Of a stretch of 64,000 nucleotides of DNA, positions 18,689 through 64,000 are shown in pieces. Source of the stretch: Haloflavibacter putidus (GTDB taxonomy: Bacteria > Bacteroidota > Bacteroidia > Flavobacteriales > Flavobacteriaceae); NCBI RefSeq assembly GCF_006546625.1, contig NZ_VIAR01000015.1, positions 1 through 64,000 of the forward strand, written 5' to 3'. Each line of letters starts with the position of its first letter. The stretch's first letter is position 1. Under the pieces are notes generated by a model that worked only from the letters and a program-made list of their open reading frames with translations, did no database searches and was not told the origin of the DNA. Made by a program: the position numbers and the translations under genes.

Positions 18689-18736
18689 AGCAGAAAGATA
18701 AACAAATTTTGGTCTAATACCAGTAGTTACCGGTAA

Positions 18737-20281
18737 TTAAAACGGCACATCATCATCACTATCGCGATTAATAGCACTACCAAAAGCTTCGTCTGGCGAC
18801 GGGAAACTAGCTTTACTTTCGCCAAACGGATTGTCGTCGTTATCGTTTAATTTGGAATGAAATTCTTGTGGCGCATCAAAAGTTTCGAGGTTATCAAATT
18901 TACCAAGTTGGCCAATAAATTTCAAGCGTACATTATCCAAACCACCATTCCGGTGTTTAGCAATAATAAATTCGGCTTGACCGTCTGTAGGACTTTGTTC
19001 TTCATCATCCCAGGTATCTATCTTGTAGTATTCGGGTCGGTAAATAAAAGACACAATATCTGCATCCTGCTCGATAGCTCCGGATTCCCGTAAATCTGAT
19101 AATAAAGGACGTTTACTGCCGCCTCGTGTTTCTACCGCACGCGATAATTGCGAAAGTGCAATAACCGGTACATTTAATTCTTTTGCCAGCGCTTTTAAGT
19201 TTCTAGAAATAGTAGAGATTTCTTGCTCTCTATTACCGCCTTTTTGATTATTGCCACCCGTCATTAACTGTAAGTAATCTATCACTATTAGACGAATACC
19301 ATGTTTGGAAGAAAGCCTTCTAGCTTTTGCCCGTAAATCAAAAATAGAAAGCGAAGGCGTATCGTCTATAAATAATGGCGCTTTTTCCAGGCCTTTTACT
19401 TTTACGTTTAGCTGTTCCCACTCATCTTTCCGCAAATCGCCGGTTCTAAGTTTATCGGATTCTAACCCGGTTTCCGAAGAAATTAATCGGGTAATTAACT
19501 GTACGGAAGACATTTCTAAAGAGAAAAATGCAACCGGTATATTTTGACCCACCGCTATATTTCTGGCCATAGAAAGCGTGAGTGCGGTTTTACCCATCCC
19601 GGGACGTGCTGCCACGATAATTAAATCGCTGGGCTGCCAGCCGGAAGTTAATTCGTCTACACGTGCAAATCCGGAAGGCACTCCGCTTAAACCTTCTTTA
19701 TTTGATATTTCTTCGATTTTCTTTTTGGCCTGAATTACTAAATCTTTGGCCGTTTCTGAAGAGCGTTTAATGTTGCCTTGGGTAACTTCGTAGAGTTTGT
19801 TTTCTGCACTATCTAATAACTCAAAAACATCGGTACTTTCGTCGTAAGCCTCTTCAATAATCTCGTTGGAAATTTTAATAAGACTACGCTGAATATATTT
19901 TTGTAGAATTATACGAGCGTGAAATTCTAAGTGGGCAGAAGAGGAAACTTTTTGGGTTAATTGAATTAAATAATAATCGCCGCCAATTTGTTCTAATTTT
20001 CCATCTTTTTTTAACTGGCTCGAAACCGTTAATAAATCTATTGGCTCTGTATTTATAAATAACGTATGAATGGCTTCAAAGATGTGCTGGTGGGCTTGTC
20101 TATAAAAAACTTCGTTGTGAAGCGTATCAATAACTTCGTCTACCCCTTTTTTATCAATCATCATCGCGCCAAGCACAACTTCCTCTAAATCAACTGCTTG
20201 CGGAGGTAATTTGCCTTTTTCCAGGTTTACGATATTCCCTTTTCCGGTTTTAAACTGTTGCGATGTGCTGACTTTTTCCAT
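18737..20281 (-). CDS. dnaB: Replicative DNA helicase
   Basis: 514 residues. DnaB is the hexameric helicase that unwinds DNA at the replication fork. The N-terminal domain (about 25-130, LPPQAVDLEEVVLGAMM onward) binds primase. The RecA-like domain carries Walker A AARPGMGKTALTLS, Walker B RLIVIDYLQLM, and PVIALSQLSRAVETR plus SDLRESGAIEQDAD. The C-terminal tail is acidic (DRDSDDDVPF-like), as in other Bacteroidota. No intein is present. Confidence 0.97.
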   Translation of the reverse strand: MEKVSTSQQFKTGKGNIVNLEKGKLPPQAVDLEEVVLGAMMIDKKGVDEVIDTLHNEVFYRQAHQHIFEAIHTLFINTEPIDLLTVSSQLKKDGKLEQIGGDYYLIQLTQKVSSSAHLEFHARIILQKYIQRSLIKISNEIIEEAYDESTDVFELLDSAENKLYEVTQGNIKRSSETAKDLVIQAKKKIEEISNKEGLSGVPSGFARVDELTSGWQPSDLIIVAARPGMGKTALTLSMARNIAVGQNIPVAFFSLEMSSVQLITRLISSETGLESDKLRTGDLRKDEWEQLNVKVKGLEKAPLFIDDTPSLSIFDLRAKARRLSSKHGIRLIVIDYLQLMTGGNNQKGGNREQEISTISRNLKALAKELNVPVIALSQLSRAVETRGGSKRPLLSDLRESGAIEQDADIVSFIYRPEYYKIDTWDDEEQSPTDGQAEFIIAKHRNGGLDNVRLKFIGQLGKFDNLETFDAPQEFHSKLNDNDDNPFGESKASFPSPDEAFGSAINRDSDDDVPF

Positions 20282-53044: not shown

Positions 53045-54241
53045 ATGAAAAGTATTATTTTAAAGCCATTTGAGCATCGGGGTAGTTTGCAAATAGGTAT
53101 TTGTTTTGATTATGATGAAGTTTTAAAAGAGCATACTAAAAAAATAAAAGGGGTTCTTTGGTCACGCACGCACAAGTGTTTTTATGTTTTATTTGAACGG
53201 GATACGCAAACTAAATTATTTGAGCATTACCGGAATATGAATTGTTATATAAACTATCGACAGTTATTTGGTCTAGCCGAGTCTCTTCCGCGAAAGCGTA
53301 AAAAAACAAAATTTTTAAAAGTAAATAAGGAAGATCTTTCTAAAAATGGGGTTGGCAGAATGCACCGTTATGTTTCTTATTTACGCGGAAAACGTTTTAG
53401 CGAAAGTACGGTGCGCACTTACTACACTTTTGCTTTAAAATTTGAGGTTTTTTGCCAGAAAGAGCCGGATGCGCTCGTGGATAAGGATGTGACCGATTTT
53501 TTGGAGCAGGTAATTACCAAGCAAAACTATTCGGTTAGCTCTCACCGGCAATGCGTTAGTGCGTTAAAGCATTATGCAGAGCTGTTTGACGTGGTTTTGG
53601 AAAAAGATTGGGATGCTATGCGGCCGTCTAAAAGCAAGTTGTTGCCTACGGTTTTGTCTTTGCAGGAGGTTATACGCTTGTTGCAGGTGACCAAAAATTT
53701 AAAGCATCGTTTTATTATTGCGTTGATTTATTCGTCTGGGTTGCGAATTGGCGAGTTGTTAAATTTGAAGGTGGAGGATATTGATATTGAGCGGAAAGAG
53801 GTTTTTGTGAGAAGTGGCAAAGGCCGAAAAGACCGAGTGGTTATTTTGGCTGAAAGTGTTTTGCCTTTGTTATATAATTACCTGCAAACCTACCGGCCGC
53901 GTTATTTTTTGATTGAAGGTACGGCTATGTCTACTTATAGTAGCAGCAGTGTGCGGAATTTTTTACGGAAATCTGTTAAGCGCGCCAAGATTTTGAAGCG
54001 GGTGACACCGCATACGCTCAGGCACTCTTTTGCGACGCATTTGTTGGAAAACGGGGTAGATTTGCGACTTATTCAGGAATTGTTGGGCCATAGCAAACCG
54101 GAAACCACTATGATTTATACGCACGTTAGCAACAAGCAGTTAATGAACATTAAGAGTCCGTTAGATTCTGCTTTATCGAGCTTACGCCAGTCGGGTTATC
54201 CTGACAAAAAAGTGTTGTTATCCGGAGATTTTAATTTATAA
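53045..54241 (+). CDS. Tyrosine recombinase at the head of the cassette array (putative integron integrase)
   Basis: 398 residues. Residues 1-95 are a Bacteroidota-type extra N-terminal region (KGVLWSRTHKCFYVLFERD). A SAM-like core-binding domain follows at about 103-185, then the catalytic domain. All catalytic residues are present: Arg234 (SSGLRIGEL), Lys259 (GKGRKDR), His323 and Arg326 (PHTLRHSFA), His349 (LLGHS), Tyr358 (MIYTHV). Arg-to-His spacing is 89 residues. That is close to XerD of E. coli (96) and well short of IntI1 (131), so the IntI-specific insertion is absent. Yet the end, IYTHVSNKQLMNIKSPLD, recalls IntI. Same direction as the cassettes; the first boundary is 28 bp after its stop. 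Confidence 0.9.
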   Translation: MKSIILKPFEHRGSLQIGICFDYDEVLKEHTKKIKGVLWSRTHKCFYVLFERDTQTKLFEHYRNMNCYINYRQLFGLAESLPRKRKKTKFLKVNKEDLSKNGVGRMHRYVSYLRGKRFSESTVRTYYTFALKFEVFCQKEPDALVDKDVTDFLEQVITKQNYSVSSHRQCVSALKHYAELFDVVLEKDWDAMRPSKSKLLPTVLSLQEVIRLLQVTKNLKHRFIIALIYSSGLRIGELLNLKVEDIDIERKEVFVRSGKGRKDRVVILAESVLPLLYNYLQTYRPRYFLIEGTAMSTYSSSSVRNFLRKSVKRAKILKRVTPHTLRHSFATHLLENGVDLRLIQELLGHSKPETTMIYTHVSNKQLMNIKSPLDSALSSLRQSGYPDKKVLLSGDFNL

Positions 54242-54275
54242 ACGAGTATATTTGAACTTATATAACGAGTTGTGT
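54242..54275 (+). other. Candidate attI site with cassette promoter element
   Basis: The first crossover point (54269|54270) is in GTTGTGT (54269-54275). Upstream, ACGAGT occurs twice in direct repeat, 54242-54247 and 54265-54270. Between them TATATTTG (54247-54254) matches the Bacteroidota -7 consensus and points into the array, so it could be the cassette promoter. No good -33 box. Position as attI is inferred from the array boundary. Confidence 0.55.
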
Positions 54276-54329
54276 GTAATTTGACGCAACTAAAGTCTAA
54301 TTTTAGCATCTAATTATAAAAATGGAATT

Positions 54330-54758
54330 ATGAAAAAAATGGTTTATCTCTTTGTTCTGACTTTAGGAATAATTTCTTGTAGTTCTGATGATGAAACAAA
54401 AATCAACAATTCTGATTTAATAGGAAAATGGAATTGGTATTCGACTGACGGTGGAATTGCCTATCATATTCACGAAAATCCTGAATCAACTGGAACTGAA
54501 ATTGAATTACATCTTAACTCAAATTATTCGTTTGAGATTTTAGAAAATGGAACTGAAATTTCAAATGGAACATATGAACTATCAATGAGAGAATCAATCT
54601 ATTCGACAGAACAAGAAAGGTTTATTACATACACTGGAAACTATCAAAACCAAAATGTAGTGTTAAGCGGAATAATAAGAATTATAAGTTCTGATACATT
54701 GACAATTTCTGACAATTACGTTGACGGAATTGGAAGCGGATTTAAAAAAAATGAATAA
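54330..54758 (+). CDS. Cassette 1: lipocalin-like lipoprotein
   Basis: 142 residues. Lipoprotein signal MKKMVYLFVLTLGIISC, then SSDDETK. The mature part (DLIGKWNWYSTDGG, NSNYSFEILENGTEISNGTY, DTLTISDNYVDG) looks like the small lipocalin-like beta-sandwich lipoproteins of Bacteroidota. It is the first cassette (54270-54890), 60 bp after the crossover point, and nearest to the candidate cassette promoter. Function unknown. Confidence 0.72.
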   Translation: MKKMVYLFVLTLGIISCSSDDETKINNSDLIGKWNWYSTDGGIAYHIHENPESTGTEIELHLNSNYSFEILENGTEISNGTYELSMRESIYSTEQERFITYTGNYQNQNVVLSGIIRIISSDTLTISDNYVDGIGSGFKKNE

Positions 54759-54765
54759 AAACTAC

Positions 54766-54896
54766 ACACAACAATGGCTATAAGTAATTGCTTGTTCTCG
54801 CCTACTTCTGAAAATCCTCTCGGATTTTCAGTTTGGTGTGTACTTGCAAAGTTAAGTGCTAACCCACGCAACTACTCATAGCCGAGACCGTTGGGT
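54766..54896 (+). other. attC site 1 (131 bp)
   Basis: R'' ACACAAC (54766-54772) to R' GTTGGGT (54890-54896). Inner arms GGCTATAAGTAATTGC and GCAACTACTCATAGCC pair. An internal hairpin TGAAAATCC-TCTC-GGATTTTCA (54809-54830) lies in the centre. Confidence 0.85.
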
Positions 54897-54911
54897 AACA
54901 TTAAAAAAATA

Positions 54912-56054
54912 ATGAAATACATCTTTTACTTTTTAGTAATTCTTTCTTACACAGTTTCTTTTGCGCAATCTAAAAATTATGAAACGGGTTGGCACCAATA
55001 CAATCTTAAAGGCCGGGTACAAGAGCTTAGGACAGTTTATGCCTATCAAAATAATGCTCCGGAGAATAAAGCAAAGTTTTATAAAAATAAAGCGGCATTT
55101 GATGGAGCTTTAAAAGGAGGGGGATATCTTATTAAGTTTGACACTTTAGGTTTAATGATTAGTCATATGACTATTAGATTGAAAGAAAAGTATATAACAG
55201 TCTATACTTTAGATTCCATCAATGAAGAGATAAATGATAGTATTGCTTTAACCAAAACCGTTGTTTATCAACATTTCCCTGAGGATATTGAATATAAAAA
55301 TAATTTAAACTATAAAATTCCCTATAAAATTCCTTACCAAGTCTATCACCCATATTTTTTAAAATTAAATAAATATAACTATCATGCTATCTATCTAACT
55401 AAAAAAGAATATAACCATTCGATGCCAAATTCATTCAGTGATTATCGCTATACGTTTAAAAATGATGACAAAATAGAGGGCTATAAAGAGTTTTTGACTC
55501 CAGTAAAAGATTCTGTACCCCCAAAAAATCATAAACCGGTGGAGCGTACCGCTTATAGTTATAACGACCAAGGGCAAGTTACCGCTACACAACATTTTTA
55601 TTGGGAAGATAGGGATGCTTGGGGCATGTTAAGTGTTTGGCTAGATGAGAGATTTTATGTAAGTTCAAGTGACCAAGTTAAACATACCTACCAGTACGAT
55701 CATCAGGATCGTATCATTAGCATGACCTTATTGGTGAATAATCAAAAATTTTGGGAAGAGAGCTATACTTATCGTGAAGACGGAGATGACCTCGCCAAAA
55801 AAGAAGTATATATATGGCCGGGAGCTCCTATACAACGAAATTTTGTTAGTACTTATACTGTATTCACCTATAATGAATATGGAGATGTGGTAGAAGCCAA
55901 AGATATGGATGCAGGTAAAAAAGTTACCGATGTACGTACCTATACTTATGAGTATGATAAATATGGTAACTGGACAATGTATTGGATGTATGCCAATGAA
56001 GAAGAAGTGCCCTATGTAAAAGGAGAACGATTAATAAAGTATTTTAATGATTAA
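54912..56054 (+). CDS. Cassette 2: secreted protein with YD-like repeats
   Basis: 380 residues from the ATG at 54912; the frame opens at a TTG at 54891, the first base of the cassette, but the ATG gives a clean signal peptide (MKYIFYFLVILSYTVSFA, then QSKN). The second half has RHS/YD-like motifs: TAYSYNDQGQVTATQHFYW, HTYQYDHQDRIISMTLLV, YTYEYDKYGNWTMYWMYAN. Such proteins are often surface-exposed carbohydrate-binding. Longest gene in the array. Function unknown. Confidence 0.75.
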   Translation: MKYIFYFLVILSYTVSFAQSKNYETGWHQYNLKGRVQELRTVYAYQNNAPENKAKFYKNKAAFDGALKGGGYLIKFDTLGLMISHMTIRLKEKYITVYTLDSINEEINDSIALTKTVVYQHFPEDIEYKNNLNYKIPYKIPYQVYHPYFLKLNKYNYHAIYLTKKEYNHSMPNSFSDYRYTFKNDDKIEGYKEFLTPVKDSVPPKNHKPVERTAYSYNDQGQVTATQHFYWEDRDAWGMLSVWLDERFYVSSSDQVKHTYQYDHQDRIISMTLLVNNQKFWEESYTYREDGDDLAKKEVYIWPGAPIQRNFVSTYTVFTYNEYGDVVEAKDMDAGKKVTDVRTYTYEYDKYGNWTMYWMYANEEEVPYVKGERLIKYFND

Positions 56055-56064
56055 TAAAAACGTT

Positions 56065-56196
56065 ACCCAACAACATATAACAACAATTGCGGCTTTGTGT
56101 CCTGCGGACACAACCGCGCAAGCATAAAAGTCGGGAATTTTAGCTATCTTAGTTTCCAAACAATCCGCAACTGATTGTTATACAAGACAGTTAGCG
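56065..56196 (+). other. attC site 2 (132 bp)
   Basis: R'' ACCCAAC (56065-56071) to R' GTTAGCG (56190-56196). Arms ATAACAACAATTGCGG and CCGCAACTGATTGTTAT pair. The last ten bases before and including AAC (GTTACCCAAC) are the exact complement of the cassette's own GTTGGGTAAC start. Confidence 0.85.
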
Positions 56197-56233
56197 GTCA
56201 GGTAAGAAAACCGAAAGACACCAAAAGACAAGA

Positions 56234-56803
56234 ATGAAAGAAGTAATAATCTTAACCATATTAACAGGACTTGTTTTCTTGACTTTCCTCGTGACTATCA
56301 TTTTAGGATTCACAAAGAAGAATAAGAAATTAAAATTGACTTCTTTGTTTGTGTTCTTCGCTTTTATCGTTTGTGTGGGTTGGACAGGTTATAAAATTGT
56401 CAATAAGACCTATAACAAAGTTGCTGACACGTTTAAAATGAGAACGGGTGACGAGATATATGATGCACTATTCGACAAAAGAAAAACAGATTGTGTTGAA
56501 ATTTTGAACTATCAAGACCAAGTTGTTCCTAAGATAGACTATGCTATTTGGCTTCATTTTAAAACTTGCCCAAAGGAACTTGAACGGATTTTATCAAAGC
56601 ACGATTTTAATAATGAGAAACTTTCGACTGATAATTGGAACGGAAAAATTCCACTCGGAGAAACTTTAGATTGGTTTAACCCAACGACTTTAGGCGACAC
56701 AATATTGGTTTATGAATTCTCGACAGATGACAGTAGGAATATCCAAACTATTTGGACAAATCTTGATAGTACCGAAGTATTTGTAAGAGACATACTTGAC
56801 TAA
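56234..56803 (+). CDS. Cassette 3: membrane protein of unknown function
   Basis: 189 residues. Two N-terminal membrane segments (VIILTILTGLVFLTFLVTII and LTSLFVFFAFIVCVGWTGY), then a soluble part of about 130 residues outside or inside the membrane, with CVEILNYQDQVVPKIDYA and WLHFKTCPKELERIL. Two cysteines (in DCVEIL and KTCPKEL) may pair. No family recognised. Cassette 56191-56946. Confidence 0.7.
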   Translation: MKEVIILTILTGLVFLTFLVTIILGFTKKNKKLKLTSLFVFFAFIVCVGWTGYKIVNKTYNKVADTFKMRTGDEIYDALFDKRKTDCVEILNYQDQVVPKIDYAIWLHFKTCPKELERILSKHDFNNEKLSTDNWNGKIPLGETLDWFNPTTLGDTILVYEFSTDDSRNIQTIWTNLDSTEVFVRDILD

Positions 56804-56821
56804 AAAAAATAAAACCCGAAC

Positions 56822-56952
56822 CGCTAACAATGTATATAAAAAATAGGCGAAACAGTAATAAAATCAAAGCTTTTGGCTCGTTTCAAAATTTGTGCTTAAT
56901 CGAAAGTTTAGTGCTTCGAAATCGCCTACTTTTCATATACTAAACGTTGGCA
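56822..56952 (+). other. attC site 3 (131 bp)
   Basis: R'' CGCTAAC (56822-56828) to R' GTTGGCA (56946-56952). Inner arms contain AATAGGCGA and ATCGCCTA. The outer match to the cassette's own start is nine of ten (ACCGCTAAC against GTTAGCGGT). Confidence 0.82.
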
Positions 56953-56990
56953 GTAATTAAAAAACGAAATCAAAAAAAAATATAGAAAAT

Positions 56991-57575
56991 ATGAGTAAAT
57001 TAATAGTTACAACATTTTTACTTTTTTTATCAATTGTTGTGAATTCTCAGAATGTTGAAAATTATCTTGAAGCGGATAAGACAATTAAGTTCGACAATCA
57101 GAATTATAATTTAGTGTGGAGTTCTCACCCGAATGAAGTTTATTATAAACAGGAATATTTAACAAAAGAACAAACTCTTGAGAAATTCAAATCAATGGTA
57201 ACAATTGACTTCTTAAAAGGAGAGTTTAAAGTAAAAGATTTAGTAAATCAAAAAATACAAGAACTTGAAAATGCGAAAAAATCTAATCCAATAATAAATT
57301 ATACAGTTTTAGAAAAAGACGGAGAAACAATAATTGATTTCTTAATGAGCGTAAGTTCAAAAGACGGAAAAAAATTGTTAGTTGTTGAGAGAAATATTTA
57401 TAGATATACAAATATAGAAACTGAAAAAACGAAAGGGGTATTGCTTTTCTCTGTAAGTGAAAGGGCTTACGAAAATGAAATAGGAGAATTTTTTGAAAAC
57501 CTTAAAAAAAATAAAAATAGTCTAATAATAAAAGTTGGAAACTTTGAAATTCCAAAAATAAATCCGGAGAAATAA
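56991..57575 (+). CDS. Cassette 4: secreted protein of unknown function
   Basis: 194 residues with a signal peptide (MSKLIVTTFLLFLSIVVNSQ). The mature part begins NVENYLEADKTIKFDN and has KKLLVVERNIYRYTNIE and GVLLFSVSERAYENEIG, mostly beta-prone with a Lys/Glu/Asn bias. No domain recognised. The gene starts 45 bp after the crossover point; cassette 56947-57709. Confidence 0.7.
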   Translation: MSKLIVTTFLLFLSIVVNSQNVENYLEADKTIKFDNQNYNLVWSSHPNEVYYKQEYLTKEQTLEKFKSMVTIDFLKGEFKVKDLVNQKIQELENAKKSNPIINYTVLEKDGETIIDFLMSVSSKDGKKLLVVERNIYRYTNIETEKTKGVLLFSVSERAYENEIGEFFENLKKNKNSLIIKVGNFEIPKINPEK

Positions 57576-57582
57576 AAACTAC

Positions 57583-57715
57583 TGCCAACACCGGCTATAG
57601 TTCATTGCTTCTGACTTTCCTCTCGGAAAGTCCTTGCAAATTTGCTATCTTCGGTTTACGGCGGAAAATCCTCGCGGATTTTCACGCAACGAAACCATAG
57701 CCAAACACGTTGTGA
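57583..57715 (+). other. attC site 4 (133 bp)
   Basis: R'' TGCCAAC (57583-57589) to R' GTTGTGA (57709-57715). Arms GGCTATAGTTCATTGC and GCAACGAAACCATAGCC; central hairpin GGAAAATCC-TCGC-GGATTTTC. Same class as site 1. Confidence 0.85.
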
Positions 57716-57718
57716 GCA

Positions 57719-58591
57719 ATGCGAAAAAAAAATCGAATGAGAATAAAAATCGGAATAATACTGTTTGGAATTTTGGGAGTTTTTTTAACTTCTTGCGATT
57801 CAAAAAAAGCACCTAATCTCTCGCAATCTGAATTTTTTACTGATTCAATTTATAGTAAACATTTAAAAGAATATCGAAAACACAATGTTTATTTACCAAA
57901 AGGATTTGAAAAAGTAAAAAAATATCCGATTTTATATGCAACTGACGGTAGTAATAAAATTGAGAACAGTTTTATCAAAAAATCTTTAGACTCTTTGATT
58001 GAAAATAAGATTATTGAACCTATAATTTATGTTGGGAGTCATTCTAATGGTAAAATAGCTGATAGCACTTCAACAAAAACTGGTAATGGAAAGAAAGTTT
58101 ATTTACAATATCGAAATTATGAATATGTGAATCATCCATTTATTGAATCTATAAATCCGAAATTAGCTAATAGGTTTAAAGAACATATGCAATATTTTAA
58201 AGAAGAGCTAATTACATCAGTTGAACAAAAATTTGACCAAAATGTTACCAAAGGCAGTAGATATTTCTATGGCGTTTCTAATGGTGCAGGTTTTGGATTA
58301 AGTATGTTAAATAATCACCCGAATATTATTGGAACATATTTTTGTTTTTCAACATTTGGCGGAGATATTCAAACCAATGTTTGGAAACCCAATGTGGATT
58401 ACCCTAAACTATTTTTAGAATATGGAAGTGACGAACCTTTCTTTCTTAAGGAAGATGCTAATTTTTTAAAAACAAAATTTAATGAGCTAAATTTAGTTGC
58501 GGAAATTAATGAATTTAATGGTGGACACGATTATAAAATTTGGAATGAGAAATTTATTGAAATAATAAGCAAGGAATTAGCAGTTGAATAA
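57719..58591 (+). CDS. Cassette 5: alpha/beta-hydrolase lipoprotein
   Basis: 290 residues from 57719; an in-frame ATG at 57737 (MRIKIGIILFGILGV) is the better-placed start for a lipoprotein signal ending in FLTSC. An esterase-D-like alpha/beta hydrolase domain follows: YPILYATDGSNK, the nucleophile elbow YFYGVSNGAGFGLSM (G-V-S187-N-G), Asp region FLEYGSDEPFF and His region EFNGGHDYKIW. The catalytic triad is plausibly complete. A surface esterase or siderophore-ester hydrolase; substrate unknown. Cassette 57710-58792. Confidence 0.82.
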   Translation: MRKKNRMRIKIGIILFGILGVFLTSCDSKKAPNLSQSEFFTDSIYSKHLKEYRKHNVYLPKGFEKVKKYPILYATDGSNKIENSFIKKSLDSLIENKIIEPIIYVGSHSNGKIADSTSTKTGNGKKVYLQYRNYEYVNHPFIESINPKLANRFKEHMQYFKEELITSVEQKFDQNVTKGSRYFYGVSNGAGFGLSMLNNHPNIIGTYFCFSTFGGDIQTNVWKPNVDYPKLFLEYGSDEPFFLKEDANFLKTKFNELNLVAEINEFNGGHDYKIWNEKFIEIISKELAVE

Positions 58592-58599
58592 AGCACTGC

Positions 58600-58798
58600 T
58601 CACAACAACGTATATAACTCATAGCTAATAAGTTGCTTAAACGAAGTTAAGGCATATTTGGAAAGTCGCCAAATTTTTAAATTTGACAACTTCCCAAAAA
58701 AATAAAATAAGTAGTAAAATTTAAAAATCTGGCTTGTGCTTAATCCGAAAATAATTTTCTATTTTGTACGCTACGAGCCATATACAAGAACGTTGGCA
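58600..58798 (+). other. attC site 5 (199 bp, long class)
   Basis: R'' TCACAAC (58600-58606) to R' GTTGGCA (58792-58798). Starts CAACGTATATAACTCATAGC and ends TACGAGCCATATAC before the GTT; nearly identical in design to sites 10 and 11. The long class adds about 65 bp of AT-rich centre. Confidence 0.85.
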
Positions 58799-58846
58799 GT
58801 AATACAAGAAAATCGTTTTTCAAATAAACATTTAGTAAAAAAATTG

Positions 58847-58854
58847 TATTTTTG
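58847..58854 (+). promoter_or_regulatory. -7 promoter element (TATTTTTG) inside cassette 6
   Basis: Fits TAnnTTTG, 17 bp before the antitoxin ATG. The cassette therefore seems to carry its own promoter, as toxin-antitoxin cassettes must if they are to work at any place in the array. Confidence 0.55.
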
Positions 58855-58870
58855 ATTAAATACACGAATT

Positions 58871-59107
58871 ATGGATTTACAAACTCGAAAACTCAATTTA
58901 ATAACTTATCTAGCCCAAATTAAGGACGAGATATTATTTGACAAATTGGAAAATTATATCCTAAAAAGAGAGATTGAACACAATCCTGAATTAAAACCAT
59001 TTACTGTCGAGGAATTAATTAATCGAATTGAAAAATCTGAATTGGATTTCAAAAATGGGAATGTAAAAAGTCAAGAAGATTTAGAGAGAATATCAGCAAA
59101 TTGGTAA
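58871..59107 (+). CDS. Cassette 6: antitoxin of a RelE/ParE-type module
   Basis: 78 residues: MDLQTRKLNLITYLAQIKDE, then ILFDKLENYILKREIEHN and an acidic C-terminal part (FKNGNVKSQEDLERISANW). It matches small Bacteroidota antitoxins of the same style as the chromosomal pair at 31930. The stop overlaps the toxin start by 7 bp. Cassette 58793-59560, with its own -7 element. Confidence 0.8.
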   Translation: MDLQTRKLNLITYLAQIKDEILFDKLENYILKREIEHNPELKPFTVEELINRIEKSELDFKNGNVKSQEDLERISANW

Positions 59108-59424
59108 CAATGAAAATAGTTTGGACTGATTTTGCTATCAGAAATTTAAAAGACATTTTTGATTATTATTCTATTGAAGTAAATAAAAAACTTGCTCATA
59201 AAATCAGAAAACAAATACTTAAATCCTCTAAACAATTAATAAAAAACCCGAATTCTGGTCCAGTAGAACCTAATTTGACAATTCTAAATAAAAATCACCG
59301 ATACTTAATAAGCGGACATTATAAACTTATTTACAGAATTGTAGATAATGAAATTATAATTAATGATGTCTTTGACACACGACAAAACCCGACTAAAATG
59401 AATGATGAAAATCGGATTGAATAA
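59101..59424 (+). CDS. Cassette 6: RelE/ParE-family toxin
   Basis: 107 residues from TTG at 59101; an ATG at 59110 (MKIVWTDFAIRN) is an equally good start. WTDFAIRNLKDIFDYYSI is the N-terminal RelE/ParE pattern, NPNSGPVEPNLTILNKNHRYL and HYKLIYRIVDNEIIINDVFDT the sheet, with DVFDTRQNP at the end. The toxin is an RNase or gyrase poison. TA cassettes are thought to stabilise arrays by killing cells that lose them. Confidence 0.83.
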   Translation: MVTMKIVWTDFAIRNLKDIFDYYSIEVNKKLAHKIRKQILKSSKQLIKNPNSGPVEPNLTILNKNHRYLISGHYKLIYRIVDNEIIINDVFDTRQNPTKMNDENRIE

Positions 59425-59435
59425 TAAAGTACTAC

Positions 59436-59566
59436 TGCCAACAACGTGTATAATTAATGGCTAGTCCTCGCCTACTTACGAAAATCCTCGCGGATTTTCT
59501 ATTCGGTTTTTATTTGCTAAATTAGGTGTTTAAACACGCCACTAATCATACACAAAACCGTTGCCA
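59436..59566 (+). other. attC site 6 (131 bp)
   Basis: R'' TGCCAAC (59436-59442) to R' GTTGCCA (59560-59566). Short class; central hairpin GAAAATCC-TCGC-GGATTTTC, followed by TATTCGGTTTTTATTTGC as in site 7. Cassette start GTTGGCAGTA pairs with its end TACTGCCAAC. Confidence 0.85.
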
Positions 59567-59577
59567 CCAATTTGAAA

Positions 59578-60426
59578 ATGAACTGGAAAAAATACGAAAA
59601 AGAAATATTTCAAATTTTCAGAAATGAATACCCAGATGCCGAAATAACTTTCGATGCAAAAATCGTTGGTAGATATTCTAAAAGAAGTCGACAGATTGAT
59701 ATTCTGATTGAACAATACGTTGCTGGAAATAAATTAAGAATTGCGATTGACGCAAAATTTTTCAACAAGAAAATAGATGTAAAAACGGTTGAGAATTACA
59801 TTTCAATGCTAAATGACATTGAAGCACATAAAGGTCTTTTAATAACAAATGTTGGATATTCTCAAACTGCAATAAATCGAGCATATTATGACCCAACTGA
59901 CATTGAACTTGATATATTAAATTTCGACCAATTAAAAGAATTCCAATCGGAATATGCTTTGCCTTTCGCTGGAAATAATGCAGTAGATTTATTTGCACCA
60001 TTTGGTTGGATTATTGATGCTCGAACTTCCCCAAATTGGTTAGCGACACTTTATCAACGTGGAACTGAATTTAATGTGGAAATGGACGAATGGATGTATG
60101 TAAATTTTTGGGATAGGACAAAAAACAATGATAATGTAGAAGACCTGCTCAAAATCCAAAAACAAGGATTTAAGCAAGGGAATTACGAAGTTGAAATTGA
60201 ATATTTAAACACAATAAAAAGAAATGACTCTAAAATTGTCTTGAGGAAAGTTAAATATAAAAAACACCTAATTCCTGAATATACTGGATTTGTGGAATTT
60301 AAAGATTTTATTTTTTACATAGTAATGTTTTCACCACTTGAATTATCGAAAAAGAATATTAGAAAAATGGAAAATATTTTAATGACAATCATTCCTCGGA
60401 AAATTGAAATTAAATTATCTGAATAA
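59578..60426 (+). CDS. Cassette 7: Mrr-like restriction endonuclease-fold protein
   Basis: 282 residues from the ATG at 59578 (a TTG in frame lies at 59572). The PD-(D/E)XK nuclease core is in the first 110 residues: Asp41 in RQIDILI and D58-A-K60 in LRIAIDAKFFNKK, with IGRY/SRSRQ before it and GLLITNVGYSQTAINRA after it, typical of Mrr/Mrr_cat nucleases. The second half (FGWIIDARTSPNWLATLYQR and on) may be a separate domain. No methylase partner. Probably a defence nuclease; target unknown. Cassette 59561-60560. Confidence 0.82.
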   Translation: MNWKKYEKEIFQIFRNEYPDAEITFDAKIVGRYSKRSRQIDILIEQYVAGNKLRIAIDAKFFNKKIDVKTVENYISMLNDIEAHKGLLITNVGYSQTAINRAYYDPTDIELDILNFDQLKEFQSEYALPFAGNNAVDLFAPFGWIIDARTSPNWLATLYQRGTEFNVEMDEWMYVNFWDRTKNNDNVEDLLKIQKQGFKQGNYEVEIEYLNTIKRNDSKIVLRKVKYKKHLIPEYTGFVEFKDFIFYIVMFSPLELSKKNIRKMENILMTIIPRKIEIKLSE

Positions 60427-60434
60427 AAAACTGG

Positions 60435-60566
60435 TGGCAACACCGTATATAATTTATTGCTTGGTACTAGCCTACTTACGAAAATCATCTCGGATTTTCT
60501 ATTCGGTTTTTATTTGCTAAATTAGGTGCTTAACCACGCAACAAACCATATACAAACACGTTGCAC
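60435..60566 (+). other. attC site 7 (132 bp)
   Basis: R'' TGGCAAC (60435-60441) to R' GTTGCAC (60560-60566). Central hairpin GAAAATCA-TCTC-GGATTTTC. Same short class as sites 1, 4 and 6. Confidence 0.85.
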
Positions 60567-61180
60567 ACAAACACTCCGAAAAAACTCGGGTCGGATAAAT
60601 GACAGTTGAGAATCTGAATTTACCAAGCATTACCTGAAACGAATTGAAAGCTATTTTTAAAAGTCGAAATTAACGCTTCTAACGAAAATTGGTTTTTAAA
60701 TCTGAATTAACGAAACAGAATCTTAAAATAAGACTTTAGATAAATGTTGAGCATTGAGCAGCTATCTGAATTTAAAAAATAAAGCGGAAAATCTTAGCAA
60801 CGAATAAATTACATAATTGGATTTTAATCGATATTTAGGAACATATTTGACAACTGACAATTATTTAGCAAAACATAAAATAACCGAATAAAAATCAGCA
60901 CAGCGGAATTTTAGCACGTTCGAAAACAGAATTTGAAAATCTAGATTTATATAGCAAAACTTCTGCCCTACTCGACGGAATTCAAAAGCTCTGAGAAAAA
61001 AATTTTGATACGTAAAAAGTGCTTCGTACCAAGCAGAACGTGTCGTGTCAGTGTGCAACAACGGCTATAATGCATTGCGGTTTGGAATTTTCTATTGAAA
61101 ATTCCAGTTAAAAGTGTATTTTCGTTTATCAGCGGAATAATTCTGCGAATGATTCCGCAACGACATCATAGCCAAGACCG
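60561..61180 (+). other. Cassette 8 with no recognisable gene
   Basis: 620 bp between proper G|TT boundaries; about 490 bp precede the attC. No plus-strand frame of useful length. A minus-strand frame (60861-61061) runs into the attC and has no recognisable features. It could be a decayed gene, an RNA gene or a unit with a regulatory role. Confidence 0.6.
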
Positions 61181-61186
61181 TTGGCA
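61053..61186 (+). other. attC site 8 (134 bp)
   Basis: R'' GTGCAAC (61053-61059) to R' GTTGGCA (61180-61186). Arms GGCTATAATGCATTGCGG and CCGCAACGACATCATAGCC pair. Internal hairpins GGAATTTTC/GAAAATTCC and GGAATAATTC-TGCG-AATGATTCC. Confidence 0.85.
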
Positions 61187-61200
61187 TAAATTTGAAAAAA

Positions 61201-61812
61201 ATGAGAAAACTATTAATATTATTTATGATTTTAAGTCTTTATTCGTGTTCGAATGATGACGATGGAACAGGAAGTTCTCTGCCTGCGATAACTTCCGAAG
61301 GAAAAAATACTTTTGGATGTAAAATTGACGGAGAAACTTTTCTACCCAAAAATAATGGTGGATTTAGTGCAGGTTATACTACTGTATTGAGAGCACAATA
61401 CCGCTACTATGAATACGAATATTATGGACTAGAACCAGGATATCATCTAGCTATTAGCGCCTATAATTCTTTAACAAACAAAAGCATTAGAATAGAATTA
61501 CCTGCATCAAATGAACCAATAATGACTGGAGAAACTTATCCAATAACTATAAAAAATAATGGTAATATTTCAGCAGAATATAGTTTTTCAACAAATACTC
61601 AAGACCCAGATAATCCAAACATTTATTATTATAATTCATTCAATCACATCACAACAGAAAATTATAATGGAGAAATAACTTTTAATTTAGTTGATGAAGA
61701 AAACCAAATAATTTCTGGTGTGTTTTATTTTAGTTGTTTAAATCCCGAAACTAATGAAATAGTAGAAATTCTTGATGGTCGATTTGATATTGAATATGAC
61801 AACTGGTTCTAA
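61201..61812 (+). CDS. Cassette 9: lipoprotein resembling DUF6252
   Basis: 203 residues from the ATG at 61201 (the frame opens at TTG 61192). Lipoprotein signal MRKLLILFMILSLYSC, then SNDDDGTGSS. GKNTFGCKIDGETFLPKNNG is the signature of small flavobacterial lipoproteins catalogued as DUF6252-like. A beta-rich domain follows, ending in GRFDIEYDNWF. Function unknown. Cassette 61181-62010. Confidence 0.75.
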   Translation: MRKLLILFMILSLYSCSNDDDGTGSSLPAITSEGKNTFGCKIDGETFLPKNNGGFSAGYTTVLRAQYRYYEYEYYGLEPGYHLAISAYNSLTNKSIRIELPASNEPIMTGETYPITIKNNGNISAEYSFSTNTQDPDNPNIYYYNSFNHITTENYNGEITFNLVDEENQIISGVFYFSCLNPETNEIVEILDGRFDIEYDNWF

Positions 61813-61821
61813 AAAAACTTA

Positions 61822-62016
61822 TGCCAACACCGCATATAACAAATAGCTCCATTTTTTCTAAACCGGAAATTTTGATAACTTTACCAAGTCGCCAAATTTT
61901 TATTTTGACGTTTTAGAAATTTAAAGATAAAAACGGAAAACAAAAATTTGGCTTGTGGCGTAGGCGAAAATTATAATCAATTTGCACGCTACTTGTCATA
62001 TGCAAATACGTTGTGC
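61822..62016 (+). other. attC site 9 (195 bp, long class)
   Basis: R'' TGCCAAC (61822-61828) to R' GTTGTGC (62010-62016). Opens CACCGCATATAACAAATAGC and closes CGCTACTTGTCATATGCAAATAC; central part is AT-rich. Related to sites 5, 10 and 11 but more diverged. Confidence 0.83.
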
Positions 62017-62040
62017 ATAATTATAAAAAAATAAAGTAAA

Positions 62041-62691
62041 TTGATTGAAGAAACTTATAGAAATTCTGAATTTATTAATTCTATAATTATTGCTGCAATA
62101 GGATTATTTGGGGTTGTTTTAGGAGTTGTGGTTTCAAATATTATTAGTTGGAAGTTAAAGTCTAAAGAAAGTCGACTTAGGATAAAAGAGAAAATTTTTG
62201 ACAGAAGACTTAAAGCTCACGAAGAAATTTTAGAAATCACAAAATTATTAAGAACAATGGTTTCTACTCACGAAATTGATCAAAAATCCTATTTCATTAC
62301 ATATCCAGGCGTTTTGAGTTCTAAAAAGGATTTTGAGAACTTTATTTGGAAATTCCATAATGCTGTTAATTTCAATTCACATTGGTTAGAGTGGGAACTA
62401 AGAAAAGAAATTTTTTATGCACAAGATTATATTCAAAACGTACAAAAACACCTAAATGAAATACGAGATGAAAAAATTATTGAATACGCTAAATTTCTAA
62501 AAACTGATTTTAAAAGCTTGGCGGATATTTTAGAAGAAAAAACTATAAATTTTTTACTAATTGATATTCATAAAATTAATATTGATCCTAAAAATAGGAA
62601 ATTTCAATATTCAACGTCCGAAAGAAAAAGGAAGATTAACGATACTGAATTAATCAAAAAGTTGAATGAAATTAATGCTATGAAAAAATAA
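62041..62691 (+). CDS. Cassette 10: membrane-anchored helical protein
   Basis: 216 residues from a TTG at 62041; no ATG occurs before about residue 73, so TTG is the likely start. One N-terminal membrane segment (SIIIAAIGLFGVVLGVVVSNIIS) is followed by a Lys/Arg/Glu-rich, probably helical or coiled-coil cytoplasmic domain (KLKSKESRLRIKEKIFDRRL, KAHEEILEITKLLRT). No family recognised. Cassette 62011-62882. Confidence 0.65.
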   Translation: MIEETYRNSEFINSIIIAAIGLFGVVLGVVVSNIISWKLKSKESRLRIKEKIFDRRLKAHEEILEITKLLRTMVSTHEIDQKSYFITYPGVLSSKKDFENFIWKFHNAVNFNSHWLEWELRKEIFYAQDYIQNVQKHLNEIRDEKIIEYAKFLKTDFKSLADILEEKTINFLLIDIHKINIDPKNRKFQYSTSERKRKINDTELIKKLNEINAMKK

Positions 62692-62695
62692 CTAT

Positions 62696-62888
62696 GCACA
62701 ACACCGTATATAGCTCATAGCTAATTAGTTGCTTAATCGAAGTTAATGCATATTTGCAAGTCCGCCAAATTTTTTAATTTGGCTTATTGAGAAAAAAGGT
62801 AATAAGAAAATTTAAAAATCTGGCTTGTGCTTAACCGAATAATTATCGCTAATTTACACGCTACGAGCCATATACAAACACGTTGTGG
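62696..62888 (+). other. attC site 10 (193 bp, long class)
   Basis: R'' GCACAAC (62696-62702) to R' GTTGTGG (62882-62888). Opens CACCGTATATAGCTCATAGC and closes CGCTACGAGCCATATAC; nearly the same sequence as site 5. Confidence 0.85.
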
Positions 62889-62906
62889 CGCATTTGAAAA
62901 AAAACT

Positions 62907-63914
62907 ATGAACATTTTAAAGCTTATAAAAGACCAAATAGACGAAGCTACAAAATTAGATGAATCGCTAATTGGACTAAATTCTGTTTTTACTCATATTA
63001 AAAGAGCTGAATCCTTATTGAATTTGGCACAAGCTCAAGAAGATGACCAATATTTCACGGATGTAATCTACCGAACAAATCACAGTTACGAGGGAATTTT
63101 AAAAGAATCCTTTCGAGTTCTTACGGGAAAAAATGAAGATAGAAAAACGCCATACCAAATTGAAAAACATCTTTTGGAGCACGAATTACTTAACGAAAGA
63201 GTAATTGAGTTACTTACAAACTACCGTGAGAAATGGAGAAATCCTTCAACACACGACCACAATTTATTTTTCACATACGATGAAGCATTTTTGGCAATTA
63301 TGTCGATTAGCTCTTTTGTACACGTTTTTATGACACAAATACTTGAAAAAGTATATTACAAAAAAGAAAAGACAGCAGTAAAAAATGAATTGAGTAAAAT
63401 TCAAAAAGGAATTGAAAACGATTATAAAAATTTCGCTTTAAAAGACAAAGTAAAAACAATATTGCAAGCATTTGGAAAACGTAATATTACCAAGACAGAT
63501 GAGGAAGTTCGGAGAAGCCGATTTGAAACGGAAATAATTGGAAGTTTAACAGCGTACATTGAAGCACTTGACAAGAATATCAAGATAGATGTAGAGCCAA
63601 TTATAAAATCAGGAAATAGACAATTACGCCCAGATTTAATTTTAGAAGAAAAAAAGAAAAAAGTATTAATTGAAGTAAAAATAAATCGAAGAGACAGAAG
63701 AGGATTTATGAACGAAAGAATATTCGAAGACCAATTACTTTCATATTTAATTCACACGAACATAAAAACTGGAATTTTATTTATTGTCCCAAGCGAAATG
63801 AAAGAAGATGATGAATACGAATTAACAGAGAAGATACTTGAAGTTAGTGGAAATAAAATTGAGCTTTTGACTTTACAATTGAGCAGAAAAAACGCGCCAC
63901 AACAACGTATATAG
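62907..63914 (+). CDS. Cassette 11: HEPN-like plus PD-(D/E)XK nuclease protein
   Basis: 335 residues. Residues 1-150 are all-helical with R111-N-P-S-T-H116 in REKWRNPSTHDHNLFF, the Rx4-6H motif of HEPN RNases. Residues about 205-310 form a PD-(D/E)XK nuclease: RFETEIIGSLTAYIEAL, then D243 in LRPDLIL and E256-V-K258 in VLIEVKI, followed by FEDQLLSYLIHTNIKTGILF. The fusion of two nuclease-type domains suggests an anti-phage abortive-infection or restriction protein; this is inferred. The stop codon (63912-63914) lies inside the attC, after the R'' core. Confidence 0.8.
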   Translation: MNILKLIKDQIDEATKLDESLIGLNSVFTHIKRAESLLNLAQAQEDDQYFTDVIYRTNHSYEGILKESFRVLTGKNEDRKTPYQIEKHLLEHELLNERVIELLTNYREKWRNPSTHDHNLFFTYDEAFLAIMSISSFVHVFMTQILEKVYYKKEKTAVKNELSKIQKGIENDYKNFALKDKVKTILQAFGKRNITKTDEEVRRSRFETEIIGSLTAYIEALDKNIKIDVEPIIKSGNRQLRPDLILEEKKKKVLIEVKINRRDRRGFMNERIFEDQLLSYLIHTNIKTGILFIVPSEMKEDDEYELTEKILEVSGNKIELLTLQLSRKNAPQQRI

Positions 63915-64000
63915 CTCATAGCTAGTGAGTTATTTAATCGAAGTTAAGGCATATTTGGAAAGTCGCCAAATTTTTTAATTTGGCTTATTGAAAAGAAAGG
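63897..64000 (+). other. attC site 11, cut by window edge
   Basis: R'' CCACAAC (63897-63903) followed by AACGTATATAGCTCATAGC, as in sites 5 and 10. The R' end and any further cassettes are beyond the window. The ten bases GCGCCACAAC complement the cassette 11 start GTTGTGGCGC exactly. Confidence 0.8.

Follow-up and report, generated by a model that had tools for sequence, protein, structure and literature searches.

An integron-like cassette array beside a patch-less tyrosine recombinase in the flavobacterium Haloflavibacter putidus

Integrons based on the integrase IntI, such as the class 1 integron (IntI1), the Vibrio chromosomal integron (VchIntIA) and the IntI loci of Bacteroidota, carry tandem gene cassettes whose attC sites are imperfect palindromes of the form R''-L''-L'-R', joined between G and TT (hereafter G/TT), with an attI site beside the recombinase gene. 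A classification of simple tyrosine recombinases states that an insertion in the enzyme is essential for integron function (PMC8138268). Archaeal IntI enzymes are described with an additional domain (PMC9668308). Within the phylum, the 2022 IntegronFinder 2.0 survey counts as complete the integrons of Chlorobi, of Ignavibacteriae and of Salinibacter ruber M1, the last being the one complete Bacteroidetes integron beyond the first two groups (PMC9024848), and two other sources list Bacteroidota among integron-bearing phyla with no detail (PMC8618304, PMC9668308). Here, we describe a cassette array next to a tyrosine recombinase gene in Haloflavibacter putidus (Flavobacteriaceae). It begins in the first 64 kb (the window) of contig C6 (NZ_VIAR01000015.1; 80,806 bases) of the 2.92-Mb draft genome and continues in the remainder of the contig (L004). 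Very probably, this array of at least 31 cassettes works like an integron and is run by a recombinase that lacks the IntI insertion, or patch, and belongs to a lineage separate from IntI.

The array extends from position 54269 to the contig end at 80806 and comprises at least 31 complete units and 32 G/TT boundaries. Eleven boundaries lie in the window (the unit starts in Table 1), and 20 more complete units follow beyond it, the last ending at C6 80629. Units measure 521–1918 bases (mean 850 over 31 units), and their longest open reading frame (ORF) is on the + strand in 25 units and on the − strand in 2, the remaining 4 having none at a limit of 70 amino acids (aa). Boundaries were listed by eye, and a script then located in each unit the best-matching AAC 50–200 bases before the next boundary; a mechanical chain search under a 1-mismatch rule was too noisy for use. 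Over window and remainder together, the first ten bases of each unit are complementary to its own end at 9/10 or better in 31 of 31 units, and at 10/10 in 24. The same level is reached by 30 of 930 non-own start/end pairs, the mean complementarity to the right neighbour is 5.7/10 over the whole array, and the observed sum of own matches was attained in none of 100,000 permutations. The R box pairing is restored in the circular cassette, as in IntI-based integrons. A sequence-only reading of the window had proposed an eleven-unit array in a flavobacterial chromosome, with nine units paired at 10/10 and two at 9/10, each with its own start and not with its right neighbour. All these counts were reproduced, units 3 and 8 being the two at 9/10, and the flavobacterial host was borne out by the relatives. 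The total had to be raised to at least 31, and the G of the first joint moved from 54270 to 54269. That reading had also named in advance a failure of own-end pairing further to the right as grounds for its rejection; units 12–31 behave like the first eleven.

A covariance model built from the sites of the C6 array (R1) gave 31 matches on C6 in a whole-genome search; these are not independent because the model was trained on the same sites. Ten more matches in the same genome lie off the array on contigs C49, C2, C33 and C51, singly or in small groups. In other genomes, independently of the training sites, the model also detects sites that show this own-end pairing: 78 of 82 units in a first set of relatives and 79 of 92 in a second set match their own end at 8/10 or better.

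The 31 cores, taken from AAC to GTT, align as AAC-spacer-L''-variable-L'-spacer-GTT, that is, as R''-L''-L'-R' imperfect palindromes with AAC and GTT ends like the attC sites of IntI-based integrons. A structure of 19 pairs, which we read off this alignment, has a covariation score of 0.384 against 0.087 in shuffles, none of 500 shuffles scoring as high; 85 cells are changed on both sides, slid structures score only 0.036–0.081, and the count of further pair types (21) is not above shuffles. The L-arm cells (n = 589) comprise 504 Watson–Crick pairs, 68 A.C or C.A, a single top-strand G.T and 16 others. Note that a top-strand A.C mismatch is a G.T pair on the bottom strand. At two L-stem positions A.C is found in 20 and 30 of the 31 sites, and in relatives A.C outnumbers G.T by 224 to 6 and 239 to 19, in alignments fitted to the model. 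The own-end complementarity itself extends to position 14 and is interrupted at position 11, where an A of the start faces a C of the end in 28 of 31 units, again G.T on the bottom strand; this top-strand A.C recurs in 73 of 78 units of the first set of relatives and 63 of 79 of the second. When the circular sites were folded with DNA parameters, the bottom strand was predicted to be the more stable one throughout the array (31 of 31; mean −4.5 kcal/mol) and, among relatives, in 142 of 152 units preselected for an own match of at least 8/10. As a candidate extrahelical base, one extra base at column 179, the column to which this count applies, is present in 13 sites and absent in 18.

The classical IntI loci of the phylum provide the direct comparison. 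Their R box differs, R1 had no match at 14 such loci up to an E value of 1, and in 38 start/end pairs, which come from 7 of the 14 loci, position 11 is paired in 32 and A.C in 1. Their bottom strand is also the more stable, in 35 of the 38 pairs, with a smaller mean of −1.9. Own-end pairing is present in these IntI arrays too, so by itself it is not diagnostic of the present type of array. For classical sites an R pairing of 9–11 nucleotides (nt) is known, and in Vibrio and class 1 sites the strand is chosen through extrahelical bases and the central spacer (PMC2727003). The present sites differ in that their strand asymmetry is carried by G.T wobbles, and in the fixed A.C at position 11, through which IntI sites pair.

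The gene directly upstream of the array encodes the recombinase. In an alignment of 23 sequences (A3), its R234, H323, R326, H349 and Y358 stand in invariant columns, which we take to be the catalytic residues of the family. Against the IntI model TIGR02249 it scores 223.7 bits in two stretches, below the cut-off of 265, whereas the IntI1 control scores 507.5 bits in one stretch. Two conserved motifs are separated by 58 residues, as compared to 100 in IntI, and this spacing is bimodal: 58–61 in all 46 patch-less rows, the present enzyme included, and 100 in 24 of 31 IntI rows, the other 7 of which could not be parsed. By alignment and spacing, the patch of ~42 residues is absent from this recombinase and from 45 related enzymes. 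The system thus fails two defining tests of the IntI family, the TIGR02249 cut-off and the patch. In both sequence and structure, the catalytic part is closest to XerA and XerA_Arch (PDB 5hxy and 4a8e; NF040815), which have no patch either; the score against NF040815 (216.3 bits) again falls below the cut-off (220). Known XerA enzymes act at double-stranded dif-like sites, whereas this gene neighbours a cassette array with hairpin sites. It also differs from IntI in its extra N-terminal domain (Table 1). The closest recombinase locus, at 90% identity, is from an uncultured Mesonia.

The strongest competing explanation is a classical integron whose IntI has diverged or lost its patch, i.e. a degenerate member of the IntI family. 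We consider it unlikely. In the tree, the IntI rows are split from all 46 patch-less rows by a branch of length 1.79 with support 100/100, the motif spacing shows two separate modes, and the classical IntI arrays of the phylum use another R box and gave no R1 match. The node of the 46 patch-less rows has support 94/82 and is not starred. A single ancient loss of the patch could still be accommodated by this tree, whose branches are long and whose root is assumed. With a separate lineage preferred, these recombinases may represent an old sister branch of IntI, or a Xer-type enzyme that was independently adapted to hairpin sites.

An attI-like site lies between the gene and the array, the first G/TT boundary being 28 bases past the recombinase stop. 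Downstream of the gene, Mesonia and some related genera have a site that resembles TATATTTG-n-GATATAACnA/GTT, the TATATTTG motif being presumably a flavobacterial −7 box; other loci (e.g. L060, L061, L148, L156) have a different inverted repeat after the recombinase gene. We compared uncut query sequences for this region, for the G014 locus and for cassette 26. The window matches genome G005 at 86% through the end of the recombinase gene and the attI-like site up to base 604 (boundary at 601), with no match beyond, and G014 matches G010, G011, G013 and G005 at 78–93% up to base 304 (boundary at 301), stopping at GTT. In other relatives, too, different first cassettes stand behind a similar attI-like site. 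The start of the first cassette matches its own end at 8/10 or better at 12 of 24 recombinase loci of relatives (23 genomes), and at 9 or 10 in 17 of 17 loci with site matches in a second locus set, whose eighteenth locus has no site matches. An attI-like site beside the integrase gene and followed by a variable first cassette, as these comparisons suggest, is the arrangement of integrons. The recombinase gene is on the array strand here and in 11 of the 17 loci, a difference from IntI integrons, and on the opposite strand in 6.

Movement of whole units is suggested by cassette 26 (u26; C6 75126–75975), of which G014, a different species, has a copy with all 850 nt identical. Its core is 0.98 alike there and its left flank 0.48, and its left neighbour in G014 is an attI-like site, not an attC site; the uncut match (99.1%) runs from G/TT to 23 bases beyond the next boundary. 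In G006 the match covers the cassette and ends with the core at the next G/TT, whereas in G005 it starts at G/TT and continues into the next unit, so that two neighbours have stayed adjacent in that genome. The matches in G034 and G254 extend over the cassette body. Comparison thus places the same whole unit, delimited at G/TT, in different surroundings, and its 850-nt identity between two species suggests that the movement was recent. The toxin–antitoxin body of cassette 6 recurs in cassette 23 (L004:10765–11536; 97.5%) and in G013 (L165; 95%), with three unlike attC cores that switch right after the R'' AAC, as if the cores were separate modules. In classical sites the R'' side is used when the top strand recombines (PMC2727003); rare top-strand events could explain this switch.

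Three side observations concern these cassettes. The G014 locus (L169) has a RecQ-like frame (our reading), then a short recombinase 3' end with the attI match, then the cassette identical to u26. In L171 and L151, a u26-like cassette ends on the right in an attC core with just ten bases left from AAC to GTT, which looks like loss of the hairpin by deletion. A further copy of the toxin–antitoxin body, at 98% in G008 (L164), has no recognisable attC behind it.

In a set of 60 genomes, own included, R1 matches occur in 42, the recombinase at E ≤ 1e-60 in 24, and both together in 22 (our count from two tables); the sites reach 26 of 41 genera and 15 of 15 other genomes of the same genus. Some genomes without a close recombinase carry a more distantly related enzyme next to the array (G016). 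Across 395 genomes of the phylum, R1 matches (E ≤ 1e-6) are found in at least 87; this is a lower bound, given the strict filters and a limit of 8 scored candidates in each genome. For the recombinase, the count at E ≤ 1e-50 is 98 genomes, many of them matched over the catalytic part only and possibly of unrelated function. Proteins above the IntI cut-off, scanned for at E ≤ 1e-80 with no more than 5 candidates of each genome scored, are present in 105 of the 395: one in the host's class, none in the host's family and 104 outside the class. The remark that integrons are little known in Bacteroidota is half right, since such proteins do occur in the phylum but almost all of them outside the class of this host. 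In one genome, G123 (L200, L161), a classical IntI array coexists with a patch-less recombinase that is accompanied by two R1 matches, both short and weak.

Several observations weigh against an integron-like system run by this recombinase. Recombination is deduced from comparison of sequences. The u26 gene also exists outside this cassette form, since copies at 85–89% in G032, G033 and G002 are without the cassette left end, and G014, the carrier of the identical u26, has lost its recombinase gene. Of the 24 recombinase loci of relatives, 8 have less than 600 bases downstream, cut by contig ends, and 4 longer ones gave no pair of attI and first cassette (G004; G022, at 7/10; G049; G055, its site end masked). 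Own matches of 7/10 or less occur in 4 of 82 and 13 of 92 units of the two sets of relatives, part of which may be due to missed sites. G023 and G049 have the recombinase without site matches, and conversely 20 of the 42 site-bearing genomes have no recombinase at E ≤ 1e-60. Finally, recombinases beside similar arrays in other families (group D, frames of 282–335 aa) have no N-terminal domain, which is therefore not needed for the system.

Some of these points would suit a fossil array, formerly mobile and now reshuffled only by homologous recombination between similar cores or duplicated cassettes: G014 keeps an array after losing its recombinase, core families within the array reach 97.6% identity and could recombine, and units 27 and 29 appear to have arisen by duplication. 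We regard this as improbable, as the recombinase is an open 398-aa frame with all invariant positions, attI and cassette matches stop or start at G/TT between unlike flanks, and the 850-nt identity indicates recent movement. It is more improbable still that the host XerC and XerD move the cassettes: the only other SAM_4-type recombinases of the host genome at E ≤ 0.001 are indeed two that in our reading are XerC and XerD, Xer recombinases serve several mobile elements, and site-bearing genomes without a close relative of the neighbouring enzyme are frequent, but many genomes have a recombinase of this group next to an array and separated from it by an attI-like site, and the sites are hairpins with strand-biased pairing. 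The proposal of a working or recently working integron thus stands as regards attC-like sites, G/TT joints, cassettes and likely recent movement, and falls as regards an IntI-carrying integron.

We propose that the neighbouring recombinase, rather than the host XerC/XerD, would act on the cassettes, building and shuffling the array at G/TT. The bottom strand, when single-stranded, would fold into a hairpin that the enzyme would cut between G and TT, the fixed A.C/G.T positions telling it which strand to use. Circular cassettes would be inserted at the attI-like site between gene and array, and the array would be read from a promoter in or near attI. A bolder proposal, which we hold tentatively and with somewhat more doubt than belief, is that of a second integron class of Bacteroidota, with a never-patched recombinase lineage, fixed G.T wobbles that mark the strand and, in Bacteroidia, a fork- or hairpin-binding XPB/HARP-like domain that does part of the work of the patch.

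Table 1. Features of the recombinase, the attI-like site and the cassettes of the window (own match, complementarity between unit start and own end)
Feature	Position	Strand	Description
Tyrosine recombinase, patch-less	53045..54241	+	398 aa; Pfam Phage_integrase 143.9 bits
Recombinase N-terminal domain	53045..53254	+	residues ~1-70; predicted b-b-a-b-b-a fold, weakly like XPB N-terminal domain
attI-like site	54242..54271	+	TATATTTG (54247-54254) ... ATATAACGA; joint G/TT at 54269
Cassette 1	54269..54889	+	142-aa ORF, lipoprotein-like start (our reading); attC core 54770-54892; own match 10/10
Cassette 2	54890..56189	+	387-aa ORF, no Pfam family; attC core 56069-56192; 10/10
Cassette 3	56190..56945	+	189-aa ORF, no Pfam family; attC core 56826-56948; 9/10
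Cassette 4	56946..57708	+	194-aa ORF, no Pfam family; attC core 57587-57711; 10/10
Cassette 5	57709..58791	+	putative esterase, 290 aa, PF00756; long attC core 58604-58794; 10/10
Cassette 6	58792..59559	+	78-aa ORF and ParE-family toxin (PF05016); attC core 59440-59562; 10/10
Cassette 7	59560..60559	+	Mrr-type restriction endonuclease-like, 284 aa, PF04471; attC core 60439-60562; 10/10
Cassette 8	60560..61179	+	no ORF of 70 aa; attC core 61057-61182; 9/10; homologous to unit 25
Cassette 9	61180..62009	+	Riean_0653-family protein, 206 aa; attC core 61826-62012; 10/10
Cassette 10	62010..62881	+	216-aa ORF; attC core 62700-62884; 10/10
Cassette 11	62882..64000, past window	+	335-aa ORF; attC core 63901 to C6 64085; 10/10

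As in IntI integrons, a toxin–antitoxin cassette is present (cassette 6), its 78-aa ORF being presumably the antitoxin, judging by its position. Cassettes 8 and 25 (L004:12566–13126) are ORF-poor homologues whose R boxes differ, each still self-complementary. Units 27–29 (L004:14098–17057) comprise two ORF-poor cassettes of 521 bp, 97% alike, on either side of a third that encodes an RmrA/capP-like protein and a second ORF resembling a PIN-type protein (our reading). Near the contig end, ~100 bases past the last boundary, a palindrome lies around TTCTGGGGCTAGCCCCAGAA (L004, about 18729–18767).

The classification cited above, which has an 'integron-like' subgroup of simple tyrosine recombinases, takes the insertion to be essential (PMC8138268), whereas the enzymes at the arrays described here are patch-less. 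Our literature search, which had subscription papers and preprints outside its reach, so that an earlier description is possible, found no such arrays in Flavobacteriaceae and no patch-less recombinase running one. Surveys of integrons search for patch-bearing IntI and use attC models trained on IntI systems, and arrays like this one have therefore likely been passed over. The wobble positions offer ready single-base tests of how a recombinase tells the strands of a palindrome apart, and the array makes testable the assumption that integrons cannot function without the insertion (PMC8138268). Overall, it is likely that a second type of gene-capturing platform operates across Bacteroidota and has been overlooked, and the R1 matches (42 of 60 genomes) suggest that this dominant phylum holds a large reservoir of mobile genes that has gone unseen.

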